Assembly (NCBI GenBank): GCA_026169195.1
Contig: JAPFEH010000082.1
Coordinates: 1 to 38,934, forward strand
Direction of reading: 5' to 3'
DNA from: Dysosmobacter sp.
GTDB lineage: Bacteria > Bacillota > Clostridia > Oscillospirales > Oscillospiraceae
Length of the DNA stretch: 38,934 nucleotides
A model generated the notes under the pieces. That model worked only from the letters and a program-made list of their open reading frames with translations, was not told where the DNA came from and searched no databases. Numbering within the stretch: position 1 is the stretch's first letter; every line of letters starts with the position of its first letter. Made by a program: the position numbers and the translations under genes. Shown here in pieces: positions 5,416-30,098 of the stretch.

Positions 5416-5455
5416 GGAACAAATGTTTGCATTCAAGGAATCAATGTGGTACAAT
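5416..5455 (+). promoter_or_regulatory. lexA promoter with LexA (SOS) box
   Basis: GGAACAAATGTTTG (5416-5429) matches the Firmicute LexA/DinR consensus CGAACRNRYGTTYG at 13 of 14 positions. It overlaps the -35 TTGCAT (5427-5432), which is followed after 17 bases by the -10 TACAAT (5450-5455). This is the expected layout for LexA autoregulation of lexA at 5496. Confidence 0.85.
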
Positions 5456-5495: not shown

Positions 5496-6086
5496 ATGGC
5501 GGAACTGACCAATATGCAAAATAAGATTTATCAATATATCGCCGCCTGCATCCGGGAGCAGGGGTACCCCCCCTCCGTGCGGGAAATCGGCGAGGCGGTG
5601 GGCCTCAAATCTCCATCCACGGTGCATTTTCATTTAAAACATCTAGAAGCAGCCGGCGTCATTGAAAAAAATGCAGGGAAAGGCCGTGCCATCACATTAT
5701 CAACCCCACCGGTACCGGCAGATCAGGTTCCGATTCTCGGCAATGTGGCCGCCGGCAGCCCGATTTTGGCAGAGGAATGTATTGAAGATTATTTAACATT
5801 TGATACCGGCGGCCACGGGGAGGAGTATTTTGCCCTCCGTGTTCGCGGGGAATCGATGCTGAATGCGGGAATCCTTCCCGGTGATCTGGTGGTAGTACGG
5901 CGGCAGCAGACCGCGCAAAACGGTGAGATTGTGGTAGCGATGATCGAAGACGAGGCAACTGTCAAAACATATTCCAGAAAGAACGGCCATGTTTGGTTAC
6001 TGCCGGAAAATGAGGCATATTCGCCCATCGACGGTGCCTATGCTCAGATTTTGGGCAAGGTAGCAGCTGTGGTGCGCCGTTATTAA
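5496..6086 (+). CDS. lexA: LexA repressor, SOS master regulator
   Basis: This 196-residue LexA has the N-terminal winged helix (PPSVREIGEAVGLKSPSTVHFHL, about residues 25-47) and a C-terminal S24 self-cleavage domain. The cleavage bond is A86-G87 (NVAAGSP), the nucleophile is S120 (RGESML) and the general base is K157 (ATVKTY). All catalytic residues are present, so activated RecA should trigger autocleavage. The AAGGAGG ribosome-binding site is strong. Its promoter carries its own LexA box. A second LexA-type box lies in the prophage at 28523, so this protein probably also represses a phage gene (inference). Confidence 0.97.
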   Translation: MAELTNMQNKIYQYIAACIREQGYPPSVREIGEAVGLKSPSTVHFHLKHLEAAGVIEKNAGKGRAITLSTPPVPADQVPILGNVAAGSPILAEECIEDYLTFDTGGHGEEYFALRVRGESMLNAGILPGDLVVVRRQQTAQNGEIVVAMIEDEATVKTYSRKNGHVWLLPENEAYSPIDGAYAQILGKVAAVVRRY

Positions 6087-25527: not shown

Positions 25528-25570
25528 GCAGGTGTAGCACAATGGTCAGGGCACCAGCCTTCCAAGCTAG
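25528..25570 (+). pseudogene. 5' half of tRNA-Gly (TCC anticodon), cut by phage integration (left attachment site)
   Basis: GCAGGTGTAGCACAATGG begins a tRNA acceptor strand, D arm and anticodon arm, with CCAGCCTTCCAAGCT around the TCC anticodon (CTTCCAA loop). The right half of the anticodon stem already mismatches (GCTAG instead of GCTGG), and no variable region, T arm (GTTCGA-like) or matching acceptor strand follows. The D stem also has a non-pairing position (GCAC against GGGC). A terminator hairpin follows at 25578. The integrase gene lies next to it, so this is best read as attL, with the crossover core around the anticodon loop. The 3' half should lie at the other end of the phage, outside the window. 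Confidence 0.75.
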
Positions 25571-25577
25571 TTTTTAG

Positions 25578-25730: not shown

Positions 25731-26861
25731 TCAGCCTACCAGATACTCAGATGCAGAGTTCAACATCTCTGCGGTCTCCGGTTCTTTTGACTTTCTTCGG
25801 TAGTGTGTATAAATTCTCAGCGTCATCTCTAGGGTGCTGTGTCCGGCGAGATACTGCACCCGCTTTACGTCCAAGCCCGATTCCACCCACTGCGTAATGC
25901 AGGTGTGTCGAAGCTGATGTGGATGACACTTGAAGTCCAAGGTTACACGGATGGGACCGTTTCTCCCTCCGGACACCGTGGCCCCGAGCGGTCGATCCTC
26001 AGTAGCTGTCCGAACGTCGATGGCGGACCACATTCTGCGGAAGGAGGCCCGGGTAAGACTCTGTCCGTTTTCCATACTCAGGACATACGGGGAGCTGCTG
26101 CGCTTTCGCTCCTGCTCCAGAAATGAATGAAGTACATTAGGGATGGGGATTCTTCGGTGAGCGGCCTCTGTTTTCAGCAGCGTGGTAACCGGTGCGTCGT
26201 TCTGATTCGACGGGAAGGTTTTATTGTGCTTCACGGTGAGGATCCTGTTTTTTAGATCAATGTCCTCCCACATCAAGCCCAGAATTTCCCCTCTGCGGAG
26301 CCCTGTGGTGAGCGCGATCAGGCAGAAGGTGTAAACCCGGGTCCCCTTTGTTGCGGCCAGCAGAGCCTTCGCTTGCTCACAGGAAAGAGGCTCCACCTCC
26401 TCCGGCGGGTCACCTGACGGACCGGCATCTTTACTGATCGGGGAGCGCATGATGATTCCGTTTTCTGTCGCCGTCCGCAGGATCGCCCCGAGGATATGCC
26501 AGCACTTCTTTTGGAGAGACTGGCTGAGACCGGATATCGAGCTGAGAAACATCTGGATGTGCAGCGGCTTGATGTCTCGAATCAGGACTCCCGTGAAAAA
26601 CGGCAGCACATGGTTCTCAAAATTTGCTTTCAGGGTGGCATAGCTGTTCGGGCGCAGCTTTGGTTCTTTGTAGGCCTTCAGCCAAGCTCTGGCGTAGTCA
26701 TCAAACCGGACGTCGTTCCCCACGTCCACACCGGCACCGGATTCCAACCGCGCCTGTGCAACCTTCTCGTTCAGTTCGGCCTTCGTTTTCCCGCTGACAT
26801 ATACCCGTCTCCCAGACGGAAGAGTGACATGTGTGGCATACTTCTTTTTCGCTTTTGGCAT
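25731..26861 (-). CDS. int: Phage tyrosine recombinase (integrase)
   Basis: This 376-residue integrase starts at ATG 26861 with AAGGAGG six bases upstream. Residues 1-45 form the arm-type DNA-binding region, 50-135 the SAM-like core-binding domain (FDDYARAWLKAYKEPKLRP), and about 155-365 the catalytic domain. Catalytic residues are R189 (TTGLRRGE), H315 and R318 (HPHQLRH), H341 (AGHST) and Y351 (IYTHY). It should integrate and excise the phage at the tRNA-Gly anticodon site next door. Its transcript ends at the terminator at 25684. Confidence 0.95.
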   Translation of the reverse strand: MPKAKKKYATHVTLPSGRRVYVSGKTKAELNEKVAQARLESGAGVDVGNDVRFDDYARAWLKAYKEPKLRPNSYATLKANFENHVLPFFTGVLIRDIKPLHIQMFLSSISGLSQSLQKKCWHILGAILRTATENGIIMRSPISKDAGPSGDPPEEVEPLSCEQAKALLAATKGTRVYTFCLIALTTGLRRGEILGLMWEDIDLKNRILTVKHNKTFPSNQNDAPVTTLLKTEAAHRRIPIPNVLHSFLEQERKRSSSPYVLSMENGQSLTRASFRRMWSAIDVRTATEDRPLGATVSGGRNGPIRVTLDFKCHPHQLRHTCITQWVESGLDVKRVQYLAGHSTLEMTLRIYTHYRRKSKEPETAEMLNSASEYLVG

Positions 26862-26872
26862 CAAATTCCTCC

Positions 26873-27004
26873 TTGCAATTCTACCGATAGTAGGATAGAA
26901 TGAAGGAGCAGACAGGCTCCTTCATTGGTCATGTGGTGTGACTTATATCGAGATTGTTTGCTTCCGTCCTGATGTTCCAGCATCAGGGCGGTTCTTTTTT
27001 TTTT
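26873..27004 (+). ncRNA. Candidate small RNA (about 95 nt) with its own promoter and terminator
   Basis: On the plus strand TTGCAA (26873-26878), 17 bases, TAGAAT (26896-26901) form a promoter that would start near 26908. The transcript would end at a textbook terminator: CCGTCCTGATG (26964-26974) pairs with CATCAGGGCGG (26981-26991), with one wobble, followed by a run of 11 T. No plus-strand ORF with a ribosome-binding site lies between. A second perfect hairpin (AATGAAGGAGC/GCTCCTTCATT, 26899-26926) overlaps the start. The flanking genes are both on the minus strand, so the T run is not explained by them. Confidence 0.45.
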
Positions 27005-27839
27005 ATTTACTTTTCGCAGTCAGCATCGGCAGGTCATAGAACCGCTCTACCGTATCAGCCAAACCGCCGCCGTCGTCCATGAACACCTTGGCCTGCTGCC
27101 AGATGTCATCGGGGACGCCGTAGTAGGCCTCGGCAATGGCTCCGGTGATCGCAGCCAGAGTATCACTGTCTCCTCCGATGGAAATAGCGTTGCGGATGGC
27201 ATCCTCGAAGCTCTCGCTTTCAATGAACGCCTGTACGGCATATGGGACCGTACCCTCATTGGTGGAGGCAAAGTGGTCGAACTTATAGGTGGGCCGGATC
27301 TCATCCAAGCAGAAATCCCAGCCATAGTAGCGGGAGACATAGTTCATAATGTCATTCCCCGTGCCTCCATGGAGAGCCAGATACACGGCTCCAGCGGTGG
27401 CCTGTGCGCCGCAGATGCCGTCCGGATGGTTGTGCGTGATCTCAGCGGACAGCTTTGCAAGTCGCTCACAGTCCTCCAGAGACCGGGCAAACCAAGCGCA
27501 GGGGGACACTCTCATTGCAGATCCGTTCCCGCTGCTGTAATAGGGATGGGGATGACGGTCGTCCAGCCACTTCTGGAAGCCCCGACCATAGCCGCGATCC
27601 GGATAGGTGCGACCATATCCACGCATCATCTTCAGCATCCAGTTGGAGATCACTGCGTCGGGTACGTCCTCATCCGGGGCCTTCCGTGCTGCGGTCTCCA
27701 GCGCTGCGGCAACCGCCACCGTCATCACCGTGTCATCCGTGAAGAAGCAGTTGCGGGAGAACAGGGGGAAGTCCTTTTCCTTAATGTTGTGGAATTCGTA
27801 AATGGAACCAACGATATCGCCAATGATTGCACCTTTCAT
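27003..27839 (-). CDS. ADP-ribosylglycohydrolase (DraG/ARH family)
   Basis: This 278-residue protein shows the family's metal and substrate motifs in order: GAIIGDIVGSIYEF at the N-terminus, FTDDTVMTVAVA, GNGSAMRVSP, and the C-terminal SIGGDSDTLAAITGAIAEAYYG that carries the second aspartate pair binding two magnesium ions. Such enzymes remove ADP-ribose from arginine or other residues, or from nucleic acids. AAGGAGG precedes the ATG. It lies between the integrase and repressor genes, where phages often keep accessory genes expressed in the lysogen. A possible role is countering ADP-ribosylating defence or toxin systems (inference). A -35-like TTGACA lies upstream on the minus strand, but the -10 is unclear. 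Confidence 0.9.
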   Translation of the reverse strand: MKGAIIGDIVGSIYEFHNIKEKDFPLFSRNCFFTDDTVMTVAVAAALETAARKAPDEDVPDAVISNWMLKMMRGYGRTYPDRGYGRGFQKWLDDRHPHPYYSSGNGSAMRVSPCAWFARSLEDCERLAKLSAEITHNHPDGICGAQATAGAVYLALHGGTGNDIMNYVSRYYGWDFCLDEIRPTYKFDHFASTNEGTVPYAVQAFIESESFEDAIRNAISIGGDSDTLAAITGAIAEAYYGVPDDIWQQAKVFMDDGGGLADTVERFYDLPMLTAKSK

Positions 27840-27923: not shown

Positions 27924-28394
27924 TTAATTCTTTCTCTCTTGGTGTTCTCTTTCCTTGGGGGAAACAGGCCGGCGGAGAATTGCTTCTGCGATCCACGGCC
28001 ACTCCTGTAAGGCATCAAATGGGTCCTCACGACTGTGCACGATATGATACCGCCTCTGCAGCGCCTGATAAAACCGGCGGTGGATCGACTCCCGAACGAG
28101 CAGGACGCTGCTGCCCCAAAGAGGGATTCGTCTCCATCCTTCGGGCGGGTCCCGATGATTTGGGTCAAGGAGATAGTATAAGATCTCTGCGGATGGAAAG
28201 ATGTTCCGCTCCCGCTCGCAATCATCCTCATCGTCCATATTCAGCTCGGTCCACTCAGCACCGGAAGGGCCCTGAGAAACGAGCTGGATCCTCCCATGCC
28301 TGCCCATTATACCGGGGTACAAAAAGCAGATGCACCGCAGGTCTTCATACTTCGGATCCGATGTCGTGTATACCAAGTTCCCTTCCGCGTCCAT
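27924..28394 (-). CDS. Unknown phage accessory protein
   Basis: Starting at the ATG at 28394 (AAGGAGG eight bases upstream), the product has 156 residues. No family was recognised. It is soluble, acidic in the middle (NMDDEDDCERERN), rich in aromatic residues (WPWIAEAIL, RRIPLWGSSVLL), and ends in a charged tail. It is 84 bases upstream of the ADP-ribosylglycohydrolase on the same strand and may share its transcript. Its position suggests a lysogenic accessory or host-exclusion gene. Confidence 0.7.
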   Translation of the reverse strand: MDAEGNLVYTTSDPKYEDLRCICFLYPGIMGRHGRIQLVSQGPSGAEWTELNMDDEDDCERERNIFPSAEILYYLLDPNHRDPPEGWRRIPLWGSSVLLVRESIHRRFYQALQRRYHIVHSREDPFDALQEWPWIAEAILRRPVSPKEREHQERKN

Positions 28395-28512
28395 CGTAGT
28401 ATCCTCCTTCACACGCGATACCTATTTATGTTTTGCGTTACGTTTTGCGGGTGCGCTTTTCCTCTTTTTTCAGGTGCCAAAAATTTTGTTCAGGAATCGT
28501 GGACTTTTACGG

Positions 28513-28541
28513 TTGCGTTTATCGAACATTCGTTCTATAAT
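28513..28541 (+). promoter_or_regulatory. SOS-type promoter: LexA box overlapping the -10
   Basis: TTGCGT (28513-28518), 17 bases, perfect TATAAT (28536-28541). CGAACATTCGTTCT (28523-28536) fills the spacer and matches the Firmicute LexA consensus CGAACRNRYGTTYG at 12 of 14 positions, including both GAAC/GTTC half-sites. LexA bound here would block polymerase directly. It reads into the small ORF at 28580. Confidence 0.7.
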
Positions 28542-28579
28542 GGTACTTACACCACATGACCCGTGAAGGGAGGAATCCA

Positions 28580-28720
28580 ATGTCCGATAGACAAGCACTT
28601 ACTCAGCAAATCCTGACCATGACCCCCGAAGAACTGGACCTTTTTATTTTTCTCGCAGAGAAAGAACTTGGTCTGCAATTGCCCGGAGCGCACGCACCTG
28701 ATCGTCTGACATCTGATTGA
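28580..28720 (+). CDS. 46-residue microprotein under a LexA-type promoter; candidate anti-repressor
   Basis: The ATG at 28580 has an excellent ribosome-binding site (AAGGGAGG, 7 bases upstream) and lies 39 bases after a TATAAT promoter that overlaps a LexA box. The product is a short amphipathic protein (LTQQILTMTPEELDLFIFLA, about residues 7-26, then EKELGL). It resembles the repressor C-terminus without gaps: residues 4-32 share 8 identities and several conservative matches with repressor residues 93-121. The last 77 bases overlap the repressor gene on the opposite strand. It may bind the repressor and block its oligomerisation after DNA damage. This function is inference; the gene is small enough to be missed by gene callers. 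Confidence 0.6.
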   Translation: MSDRQALTQQILTMTPEELDLFIFLAEKELGLQLPGAHAPDRLTSD

Positions 28721-29018
28721 TGGTCTGGATCAGCTGCGCGCGGTCCTCGTTCATGCCCTCGACGGAAACGTCAGGGGTTTCTTTATATTTGGGGACATTC
28801 ATGCCCATGAGCCACAGCACATCGACCCCAAAAGAGTTAGCGATACTTTTCAGGACCGGAACCTTCGGTGACCGTTCTCCTGTCAGATACGCAGATATAG
28901 TTGACTTACTGATATTGAGCCGATCAGCTAAGACCCTATACGGAGTATCACCCACCAATTCCTTAAACCGCTCAGCAAAAGTTGTGGACCATGCCTCTTT
29001 TGGCTTCTCTATTCCCAC
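28644..29018 (-). CDS. XRE-type phage repressor (CI-like) without peptidase domain
   Basis: The start is a GTG at 29018 with GGGAGGTG upstream; the frame extends to 29057 but without a ribosome-binding site. The 124-residue product has an HTH domain at about residues 14-70 (FAERFKELVG, YRVLADRLNISKSTISAYLTGER, VDVLWLMG). A linker follows, then a short helical C-terminus (RAQLIQTINQMSDDQVRALR, then AIADQVLSL). There is no S24 LexA-like domain and no Ala-Gly cleavage site, so RecA-stimulated self-cleavage is unlikely. It is divergent from the Cro-like gene, the classical switch layout. A likely promoter on the minus strand is TTGCTA-N17-TATTGT (29076-29048). Confidence 0.87.
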   Translation of the reverse strand: MGIEKPKEAWSTTFAERFKELVGDTPYRVLADRLNISKSTISAYLTGERSPKVPVLKSIANSFGVDVLWLMGMNVPKYKETPDVSVEGMNEDRAQLIQTINQMSDDQVRALRAIADQVLSLREK

Positions 29019-29086
29019 AGTTGCACCTCCCTTCTGTGCGTATTTACACAATATCATCTGTTTCCGGATTTAGCAAGAGTATTTTT

Positions 29087-29187
29087 ACAAAACGGAACTA
29101 ATTTGTCCACAAATAAAAAAATTTGCAGAGAAAGGGTTGACACGAGAGCGCGGGCGTGTTATCGTAAGGATGTCCACAAAACAGAAC
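29087..29187. promoter_or_regulatory. Switch region: early rightward promoter and repeated operators
   Basis: Early promoter: TTGACA (29137-29142), 17 bases, TATCGT (29160-29165). Around it lie repeated motifs. ATTTGTCCACAAAT (29101-29114) is an inverted repeat. TGTCCACAAA recurs at 29171 and at 29425. ACAAAACNGAAC occurs at 29087-29098, 29176-29187 and 29430-29441. One set lies upstream of the -35, one just after the -10, and one downstream of the first early gene, as in lambdoid-type operator arrays. The TGTCCACA core also resembles a DnaA box (TTATCCACA), an alternative reading. Confidence 0.7.
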
Positions 29188-29205
29188 GGAAGGAGGGAGA
29201 CGAAA

Positions 29206-29424
29206 GTGTCTGTCTTGTATCAGAATCTTACGTTGGAAGGACTTGCTCGGGCGAGATTCAAAAGTGTTCAGCAATTAGCAGATATGCTGAAATGGAGTTA
29301 TTCCAAGACTTACCGCATTATTCGGGGCAAGCAAATACCGGATGCAAATGAAATTAGAGACCTGTCTATCGTCCTTGGAATTTCTTCTCCGGAGGATGTT
29401 GTGTCTCTTTTTTCTTTGCTTTGA
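29206..29424 (+). CDS. Cro-like small HTH protein
   Basis: The start is a GTG at 29206 after AGGAGGGAG; an in-frame ATG at 29137 is excluded because it lies on the -35 element. The 72-residue product contains a compact HTH: LARARFKSVQQLADMLKWSYSKTYRIIRGKQ (about residues 12-42), then DANEIRDLSIVLGISSPEDV. It is the first gene rightward from the switch promoter, so it probably opposes the repressor. Operators lie both before and directly after it (29425-29441). Confidence 0.75.
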   Translation: MSVLYQNLTLEGLARARFKSVQQLADMLKWSYSKTYRIIRGKQIPDANEIRDLSIVLGISSPEDVVSLFSLL

Positions 29425-29482
29425 TGTCCACAAAACCGAACACAGCCTAATGTAGCCTACCACAGCACAACACAGCCTAATG
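29425..29482 (+). repeat. Operator copy plus a 12-base direct repeat before the third regulator gene
   Basis: TGTCCACAAAACCGAAC (29425-29441) repeats the switch-region operator. CACAGCCTAATG occurs at 29441-29452 and again at 29471-29482, 30 bases (about three helical turns) apart. The block sits just ahead of the ribosome-binding site (29500-29504) of the next gene, a likely site for feedback control. Confidence 0.6.
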
Positions 29483-29510
29483 CAGCCCATTGGCATATTG
29501 GAGGATGAAC

Positions 29511-29918
29511 ATGAAAACGAACAATGCACTGGGCGCGAGAGTGCGCCAACTTCGGGCGGAGAAGGGGTATTCCCAAGAGGAGCTATGTAAGCTCTTGGGA
29601 TGCGTCAGCCGAGGTCAGATCGGGCGCATCGAGAACGGGACCCGGAACGCAGATCGAAACGTCATCCGCGAGATGGCACGGGTCTTCGGTGTTACGGAGT
29701 CCTATCTGGTCTGCGGAGAGGACAACCCGACTTCGCTATCAGATACCCCATGCGCGGATATCTTCCGCATCAAGGGCAGACCGAAAGGACGGACCGCGAT
29801 CCAACTGTACCCCGATACCTCGGACACCCTGCACTTCTTAGCGCGGAAGCACGGCATCACGACTCCCGAACTGCTGGAACAGATCGTGGAGTTTGCCCTG
29901 AGTCACATGGACGTGTAA
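29511..29918 (+). CDS. XRE regulator with a ribbon-helix-helix-like C-terminal segment
   Basis: The ATG at 29511 is six bases after GGAGG and is preferred to two closer upstream ATGs. The 135-residue protein has an XRE HTH (about residues 6-65: LGARVRQLRAEKGYSQEELC, SRGQIGRIENGTRNAD). A second segment follows (about 92-133: GRTAIQLYPDTSDTLHFLAR, then TTPELLEQIVEFALSHM) with the beta strand-helix-helix look of Arc/MetJ-type ribbon-helix-helix proteins. Two DNA-binding folds in one chain would be unusual. It is the second early regulator after the Cro-like protein. Confidence 0.75.
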   Translation: MKTNNALGARVRQLRAEKGYSQEELCKLLGCVSRGQIGRIENGTRNADRNVIREMARVFGVTESYLVCGEDNPTSLSDTPCADIFRIKGRPKGRTAIQLYPDTSDTLHFLARKHGITTPELLEQIVEFALSHMDV

Positions 29919-29933
29919 GGAGGATCACACCAC

Positions 29934-30098
29934 ATGACCCAAGAAAAAGCATTCACCGTAGACGCATTGGCAGAACGATGGAGCTGCTCCAGAGATGTGG
30001 TCTACGAACTCCTGCGGAAGCGGGAGCTGAAGGCGTTCAAAGTCGGTCACTCTTGGAGGATTTCCCCCAGAGAGGTTGACCGTTTTGAGAATTCATAA
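29934..30098 (+). CDS. Excisionase-like / MerR-type winged-helix small protein
   Basis: This 54-residue protein follows the HTH_17 (excisionase family) pattern: FTVDALAERWSCSRDVVYELLRKREL, then AFKVGHSWRISPREVDRF. AAGGAGG lies 11 bases upstream of the ATG. In other phages such proteins act as recombination directionality factors or early regulators. Here it is far from the integrase gene, so regulation of early genes is equally possible. Confidence 0.75.
   Translation: MTQEKAFTVDALAERWSCSRDVVYELLRKRELKAFKVGHSWRISPREVDRFENS

Follow-up and report, generated by a model that had tools for sequence, protein, structure and literature searches.

Organization of the locus

The window, that is the whole stretch of DNA analysed (38,934 nt), corresponds to a single contig; the Dysosmobacter sp. 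genome assembly to which it belongs comprises 2.37 Mb and is 95.6% complete. By eye, a prophage starts near 25.5 kb of the window, and its genes follow in the order integrase, ADP-ribosylglycohydrolase, a 162-residue gene, a small ORF, repressor, cro-like gene, second HTH gene and excisionase-like gene. The features on which the argument turns are these:

5417-5428, plus strand: LexA-type box GAACAAATGTTT of the host lexA gene, upstream of lexA (5496-6086) and used as a yardstick
25731-26864, minus strand: phage integrase, by family match, with a 13-mer in its leader
27003-27839, minus strand: ADP-ribosylglycohydrolase gene, by family match
28513-28541, plus strand: promoter TTGCGT-N17-TATAAT, with a weak -35 and a perfect -10 element
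28523-28536, plus strand: LexA (SOS) box CGAACATTCGTTCT, between the -35 and -10 elements
28549-28561, plus strand: 13-mer in the microprotein leader, common to the integrase and excisionase-like leaders
28580-28720, plus strand: 46-residue microprotein ORF with ribosome-binding site, candidate SOS-induced antirepressor
28644-29018, minus strand: HTH repressor of 124 residues without an S24 peptidase domain
29102-29187, no strand assigned: likely repressor operators, judged by repeats and a palindrome
29206-29424, plus strand: cro-like HTH gene, by weak HTH matches; first gene of the rightward early operon
29934-30098, plus strand: excisionase-like HTH_17 gene, by family match, with the 13-mer over its start codon

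Left of the small ORF lie the ADP-ribosylglycohydrolase gene, an apparent prophage cargo between integrase and repressor, and the unassigned 162-residue gene, which is on the minus strand as well. Just outside the integrase gene, positions 25533-25573 resemble by eye the 5' part of a tRNA-Gly (TCC), cut in the anticodon region, and are a probable attachment site; ARAGORN reported no tRNA in the window. For the cro-like gene the GTG start at 29206 was picked by eye, the start in the ORF list being 29137.

The small ORF is preceded by a ribosome-binding site, GGGAGG at 28568-28573, and runs from the ATG at 28580 over 46 codons to 28720. It is convergent to the repressor gene and overlaps it by 77 nt, an overlap absent from the first-pass annotation. 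AlphaFold2 predicts two helices, residues 3-13 and 16-30, followed by a low-confidence tail, with pLDDT block means of 92, 93 and 91 over residues 1-30. No homologues of the microprotein were found in Pfam, PHROGs, NCBIfam, PDB sequences, phage records, viral contigs or genome contigs, nor did it match any Pfam family at E up to 0.1, the SinI family model included, or any HTH model. At the same threshold, matches in four of 400 family genomes comprised its own and three weak ones in frames of 439-1653 residues, which we take as chance. By these comparisons the gene is an orphan ORF.

The adjoining 124-residue repressor had been described as lacking a LexA-like peptidase domain, and this holds: Pfam finds HTH_3 (E 1.9e-10) and no match to Peptidase_S24. 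The gene was read from the GTG at 29018, ahead of which a good ribosome-binding site is seen by eye. The solved chains nearest to it are annotated as CI, presumably that of TP901-1. Its structure model (mean pLDDT 49.8) is too poor for use, and just the last two helices are quoted below, as a hint. Repeats of the TGTCCACAAA type stand at 29080-29098, 29169-29187 and 29423-29441, and by eye there is a palindrome at about 29102-29115. Two 19-nt direct repeats (95% identical) at 29439-29487, between the cro-like and second HTH genes, are a possible operator of the second regulator.

No homologue of the repressor was confirmed in the viral or genome contigs. Phage records gave only a 35% match to its HTH, in two copies of one record, and among other genomes matches were confined to the HTH part, in 1 of 85 of the genus and 5 of 399 of the family. 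The five family matches (L198-L202) lie in 219-residue frames that by eye encode S24-type repressors, with no RAACN4GTTY site within 500 nt behind the frames. A DNA search with the region yielded none in phages or plasmids and just matches of 28-50 nt in five of the 85 other genus genomes.

The 13-mer, ACACCACATGACC, has exactly three copies in the assembly, all in the prophage and in sense orientation (26927-26939, 28549-28561 and 29927-29939). Shared by all three leaders, it links the small gene with the genes for integration and excision. Among 300 simulated regions, one contained a 12-mer in at least three copies, and the other 85 genus genomes together hold five copies of the 13-mer, compared with four of the reversed control. 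By eye it also stands in a viral locus (L085), where a further LexA-type box, upstream of an integrase-like gene, follows shortly after it. In the integrase leader, a perfect 11-bp inverted repeat (26899-26926) comes directly after the 13-mer.

LexA control of the small gene

The first-pass annotation had seen a LexA-type box at 28523-28536 overlapping a TTGCGT-N17-TATAAT promoter that reads into the 46-residue ORF. Direct reading confirmed this; a LexA-type box overlapping the promoter is one mark of an SOS regulon gene, and it is found here. The -10 hexamer (28536-28541) follows the -35 hexamer (28513-28518) at a spacing of 17 nt, and the latter matches just three of six consensus positions, which is why the promoter is missing from the consensus scan list.

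By itself the pair of half-sites is not rare: GAACN4GTTC occurs 33 times in the own genome and its reversed control 34 times. With at most one mismatch, the box pattern matches once in the window, compared with a mean of 2.1 in shuffles, and RAACRWWYGTTY as a motif alone is not enriched in the genome either (six sites versus seven for the reversed control). It is the position of these six sites, not their number, that carries weight: by eye, one stands before lexA, one in the microprotein promoter, a third some 200 nt ahead of a gene with a match to TIGR03916, a putative DNA modification/repair radical SAM protein, one in the intergenic stretch before a LacI-type gene, and two within ORFs.

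The host lexA gene lies in the same window as the prophage, and the box upstream of it is of the same type as that in the microprotein promoter. In the genus, RAACN4GTTT is found upstream of lexA in 28 of 30 loci (from 41 genomes, the own included). Under a stricter definition, GAACN4GTTC with at most one mismatch, 19 of the 30 lexA loci have a site, as against 7.5% of random 180-nt stretches from the same loci. Ten of 400 family genomes contain the full context of box, TATAAT, N20-50 and GGAGG, and no reversed pattern was present among the matches listed; with a leading C required, it was detected in 6 of 394 order genomes and reversed in none, the family and order samples overlapping. Behind the ten family sites stand a Y-family polymerase (L044), which is a classical SOS gene, an M78-type protease (L046), WYL regulators (L045, and L047 by likeness), by eye genes like the terminase small subunit (L048-L050), the window ORF and two further small ORFs (L043, L052). 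By eye, the same pattern drives a recA in L106. Given the host-type box, the placement of the sites, the rarity of the full context and the genes found at the family sites, the box is very likely used by LexA, and the LexA control proposed for the small gene is to this extent borne out.

Two observations concern other genes behind such promoters. An M78/ImmA-type protease gene stands directly behind the LexA-box promoter in L046, and a near-identical copy of it does so in L085, so that ImmA-like switches may be SOS-driven too in this family. In L048, L049, L050 and L082, a LexA-box promoter precedes a gene that by eye resembles that of the terminase small subunit.

Recurrence of the arrangement in other phages

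Viral contigs were searched for a LexA box and TATAAT followed by GGAGG or AGGAG, a pattern into which the ribosome-binding site is thus built. Removal of duplicates by an 80-nt key reduced 86 viral loci to 77 distinct sites and 26 control loci to 18; sites with less than 600 nt downstream (18 of 77 viral, 1 of 18 control) were dropped, leaving 59 and 17. At 17 of the 59 viral sites, and at none of the 17 scrambled-box sites, an HTH gene in convergent orientation ends within 500 nt (Fisher p = 0.007; the sites are not phylogenetically independent), a contrast that may be partly taxonomic because the control contigs are unmatched by host taxon. Among the genome sites, three of 12 distinct ones have such a gene (the own, L052 and L103). 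In Pfam, at E 0.001, HTH_3 was matched by 20 of 46 convergent ORFs and Peptidase_S24 by none of the 46, and no HTH was found in nine control ORFs. The set scan gives the HTH_3 matches as a total only; eight and the own were placed by a Pfam search locus by locus, and eleven by a profile of this study, five of these being its seeds.

At 14 of the 17 viral sites with a convergent HTH gene, the script called an ORF of 32-66 residues. The other three are L042 (97 residues), L125 (12 residues, 42 by eye) and L133 (none), the last having a different ORF and being excluded from the pair tests; L066 and L094 share the same ORF, and both are counted among the 17. Two sites (L033, L037) carry family-like ORFs with no convergent HTH gene within 500 nt, and the sequence of L036 ends 234 nt past the box. 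Genes of various kinds stand, by eye, behind other viral sites: YolD-like and further short genes, integrases, a recA and unnamed ORFs.

The small proteins are not a single family. There is one main 'IY' family (roughly 'II.L......L..IY.f...L') besides several other types, and many of the 14 ORFs at viral sites appear by eye to form two short helices, the AlphaFold2 model being of the window ORF only. Membership of the window ORF in the 'IY' family was rejected, as it scored -0.3 against a profile of 16 and 62 of 500 shuffles scored at least as high. It has parallels in L055 and L068: all three ORFs are exactly 46 residues long, have a similar tail and overlap the repressor gene by 74-80 nt.

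The arrangement is also seen in phages of Ruminococcus gnavus. In all five phages examined (phiRgIBDN1, phiRg507T2_3, phiRg519T2, phiRM10 and RG-TP1), two LexA-type boxes, AGAACAAATGTTCG and CGAACAAGTGTTTT, accompany a 33-residue ORF that is convergent to an HTH regulator, which in phiRgIBDN1 has 114 residues, an HTH_3 domain and no S24 match. The convergent arrangement is kept while the left neighbour varies. These are weak tblastn matches (E 2-4), which count solely through the agreement of boxes, position and convergence. Four of the records leave the ORF unannotated, and that of RG-TP1, which names 'antibiotic induction' as the source, calls it a 'hypothetical protein'. Lysogens of phiRg507T2/3 release phage spontaneously, LexA being unmentioned in the accessible part of that report (PMC10072058). 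A further locus, L162 (H3), has the small ORF and a convergent HTH gene, but the 160 nt ahead of the match contain no box (at most one mismatch).

A small gene with a LexA box, convergent to a repressor and often unannotated, thus recurs in unrelated phages. By sequence comparison, what is conserved is the architecture, not this particular sequence.

Resemblance to the repressor C-terminus

Residues 3-33 of the microprotein form a gap-free alignment with residues 92-122 of the repressor, with 9 of 31 positions identical, an alignment unreported by BLASTP. The predicted helices lie in register, those of the microprotein spanning residues 3-13 and 16-30 and those of the repressor, at low confidence, residues 91-102 and 105-123. 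The p values for the own pair are 0.014 when the whole repressor is the target, 0.009 for its C-terminal part and 0.006 with the repressor part shuffled; they are optimistic because the resemblance was noticed before the test.

In a class-wide test with 15 group representatives of 18 pairs, the cognate repressor ranked first of 15 for the own pair and for the L034 group, 14th for L055 and L066, and last for L078 and L103. A decoy as a class-wide rule is unsupported, the mean cognate z being 0.76 as against 0.62 when permuted (p = 0.32). Repressor C-termini scored higher against the small proteins than the preceding stretch did, also for non-cognate pairs (mean z 0.58 versus 0.14), which may reflect helical composition alone. 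Since the class-wide cognate resemblance is not significant, the microprotein may be regarded as a possible decoy of the C-terminal helical hairpin of the repressor in its own phage, not as an instance of a rule.

Discussion

How would DNA damage reach a repressor of this kind? Phage repressors that consist of an HTH domain only are not subject to the RecA-aided cleavage of S24-type repressors, and to our knowledge the route by which the damage signal reaches many prophages with such repressors is an open question. For the phage described here, we favour with moderate confidence a prophage induction switch operated by an SOS-induced antirepressor microprotein. In the lysogen, host LexA on the box would keep the microprotein off, while the HTH-only repressor would keep the lytic operon off. 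Upon DNA damage, RecA filaments would bring about self-cleavage of LexA and the microprotein would be made; by binding the repressor it would release the operators, and the lytic operon would start. LexA binding, expression after damage, and binding and inactivation of the repressor are steps that we infer, the antirepressor activity from position, regulation and analogy.

An SOS-induced antirepressor microprotein is what the first-pass annotation had proposed, and overall the proposal is probably right in kind. Speaking for it are the box within the promoter, of the type used by the host LexA, the peptidase-free repressor and the recurrence of the layout in unrelated phages; against it weigh the weak -35 element, the missing terminator behind the ORF, the diversity of the small proteins, and the fact that the sequences searched held neither a homologue of the ORF nor a close relative of the repressor.

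In its logic the module probably works like Tum of phage 186 or GfoA/GftA of the Gifsy phages. With these, and with AntC of N15, it would share a small protein under LexA control, and the repressor of the window phage lacks an S24 cleavage domain. Those are phages of enterobacteria, whereas ours comes from another bacterial group, and Tum has 146 residues, the window ORF 46. A decoy microprotein, short, helical and similar to the C-terminal helices of its own repressor, would act like SinI on SinR in Bacillus subtilis; SinI is not known to be LexA-controlled, and the window ORF has no Pfam match at E 0.1. In the Gifsy prophages the repressor is uncleaved and LexA-controlled antirepressors bring about SOS induction by inactivating it (PMC3121763). 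Their antirepressor gene is located outside the immunity region and at a distance from it, whereas the window ORF is convergent to the repressor gene and overlaps it. The MOR/CI pair of TP901-1 is similar in coming from a phage of a Gram-positive host and in the CI annotation of the solved chains nearest to our repressor. MOR is 72 residues long and contains a helix-turn-helix (PMC11323111), whereas the window ORF matches neither an HTH model nor a PDB sequence. In ImmR/ImmA-type systems, an HTH repressor is inactivated by a second element-encoded protein (PMC12637031); ImmA is a protease, the window ORF a predicted two-helix peptide.

Could the working product be the RNA, or transcription itself, rather than the protein? 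A LexA-driven transcript would then cross the repressor gene in antisense and continue into cro and the lytic operon, so that repressor levels fall and the lytic genes are switched on directly. We consider this unlikely, although no terminator was found between 28700 and 29260, nor by the terminator scan in 28300-29600, and the 77-nt overlap has counterparts of 74-90 nt in five other pairs, two of which (L034, L067) are relatives. Against it, a terminator-like hairpin stands within 75 nt after the small ORF in 10 of the 18 pairs; in four of these ten (L034, L055, L067, L069) the repressor gene would still partly be read antisense, because of the overlap between the two genes, with the hairpin placed within it.

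It is likewise improbable that the gene is SOS-induced and of another kind, serving as cargo, in superinfection exclusion or in host takeover, and next to the repressor by chance. Its leftward neighbours are cargo-like, and resemblance to the cognate repressor is not significant over the class; yet the position convergent to a peptidase-free repressor recurs, and the R. gnavus phages retain it beside a changing neighbour. That the ORF is untranslated or the box unused, as chance or decayed sequence, fits the commonness of the half-sites, the orphan state of the ORF and the weak -35 element, but is very improbable in view of the ten family genomes with the full context, for which no reversed match was listed, and of a leader 13-mer held in this genome only by the small gene and the integrase and excisionase-like genes.

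Returning to the antirepressor switch, we found no description, in the open-access literature searched, of a module in which a LexA-driven microprotein faces a peptidase-free repressor. The recurring module seems to be new; the named hosts are all Bacillota. Tentatively, and with more doubt than belief, we would extend this to a widespread, mostly unannotated module of Bacillota prophages that hands damage sensing to host LexA via a convergent two-helix microprotein. In some lineages, the own included, this would be a stand-alone mimic of the C-terminal hairpin that breaks repressor oligomers and is partly encoded opposite the hairpin it imitates.

As the same arrangement stands in unrelated viruses, it may represent an overlooked way of waking prophages. 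LexA-driven genes of about 30-66 residues beside HTH-only repressors offer a testable answer to how the damage signal arrives. The module marks genes that gene callers miss, and could let the mode of prophage induction be predicted from sequence.
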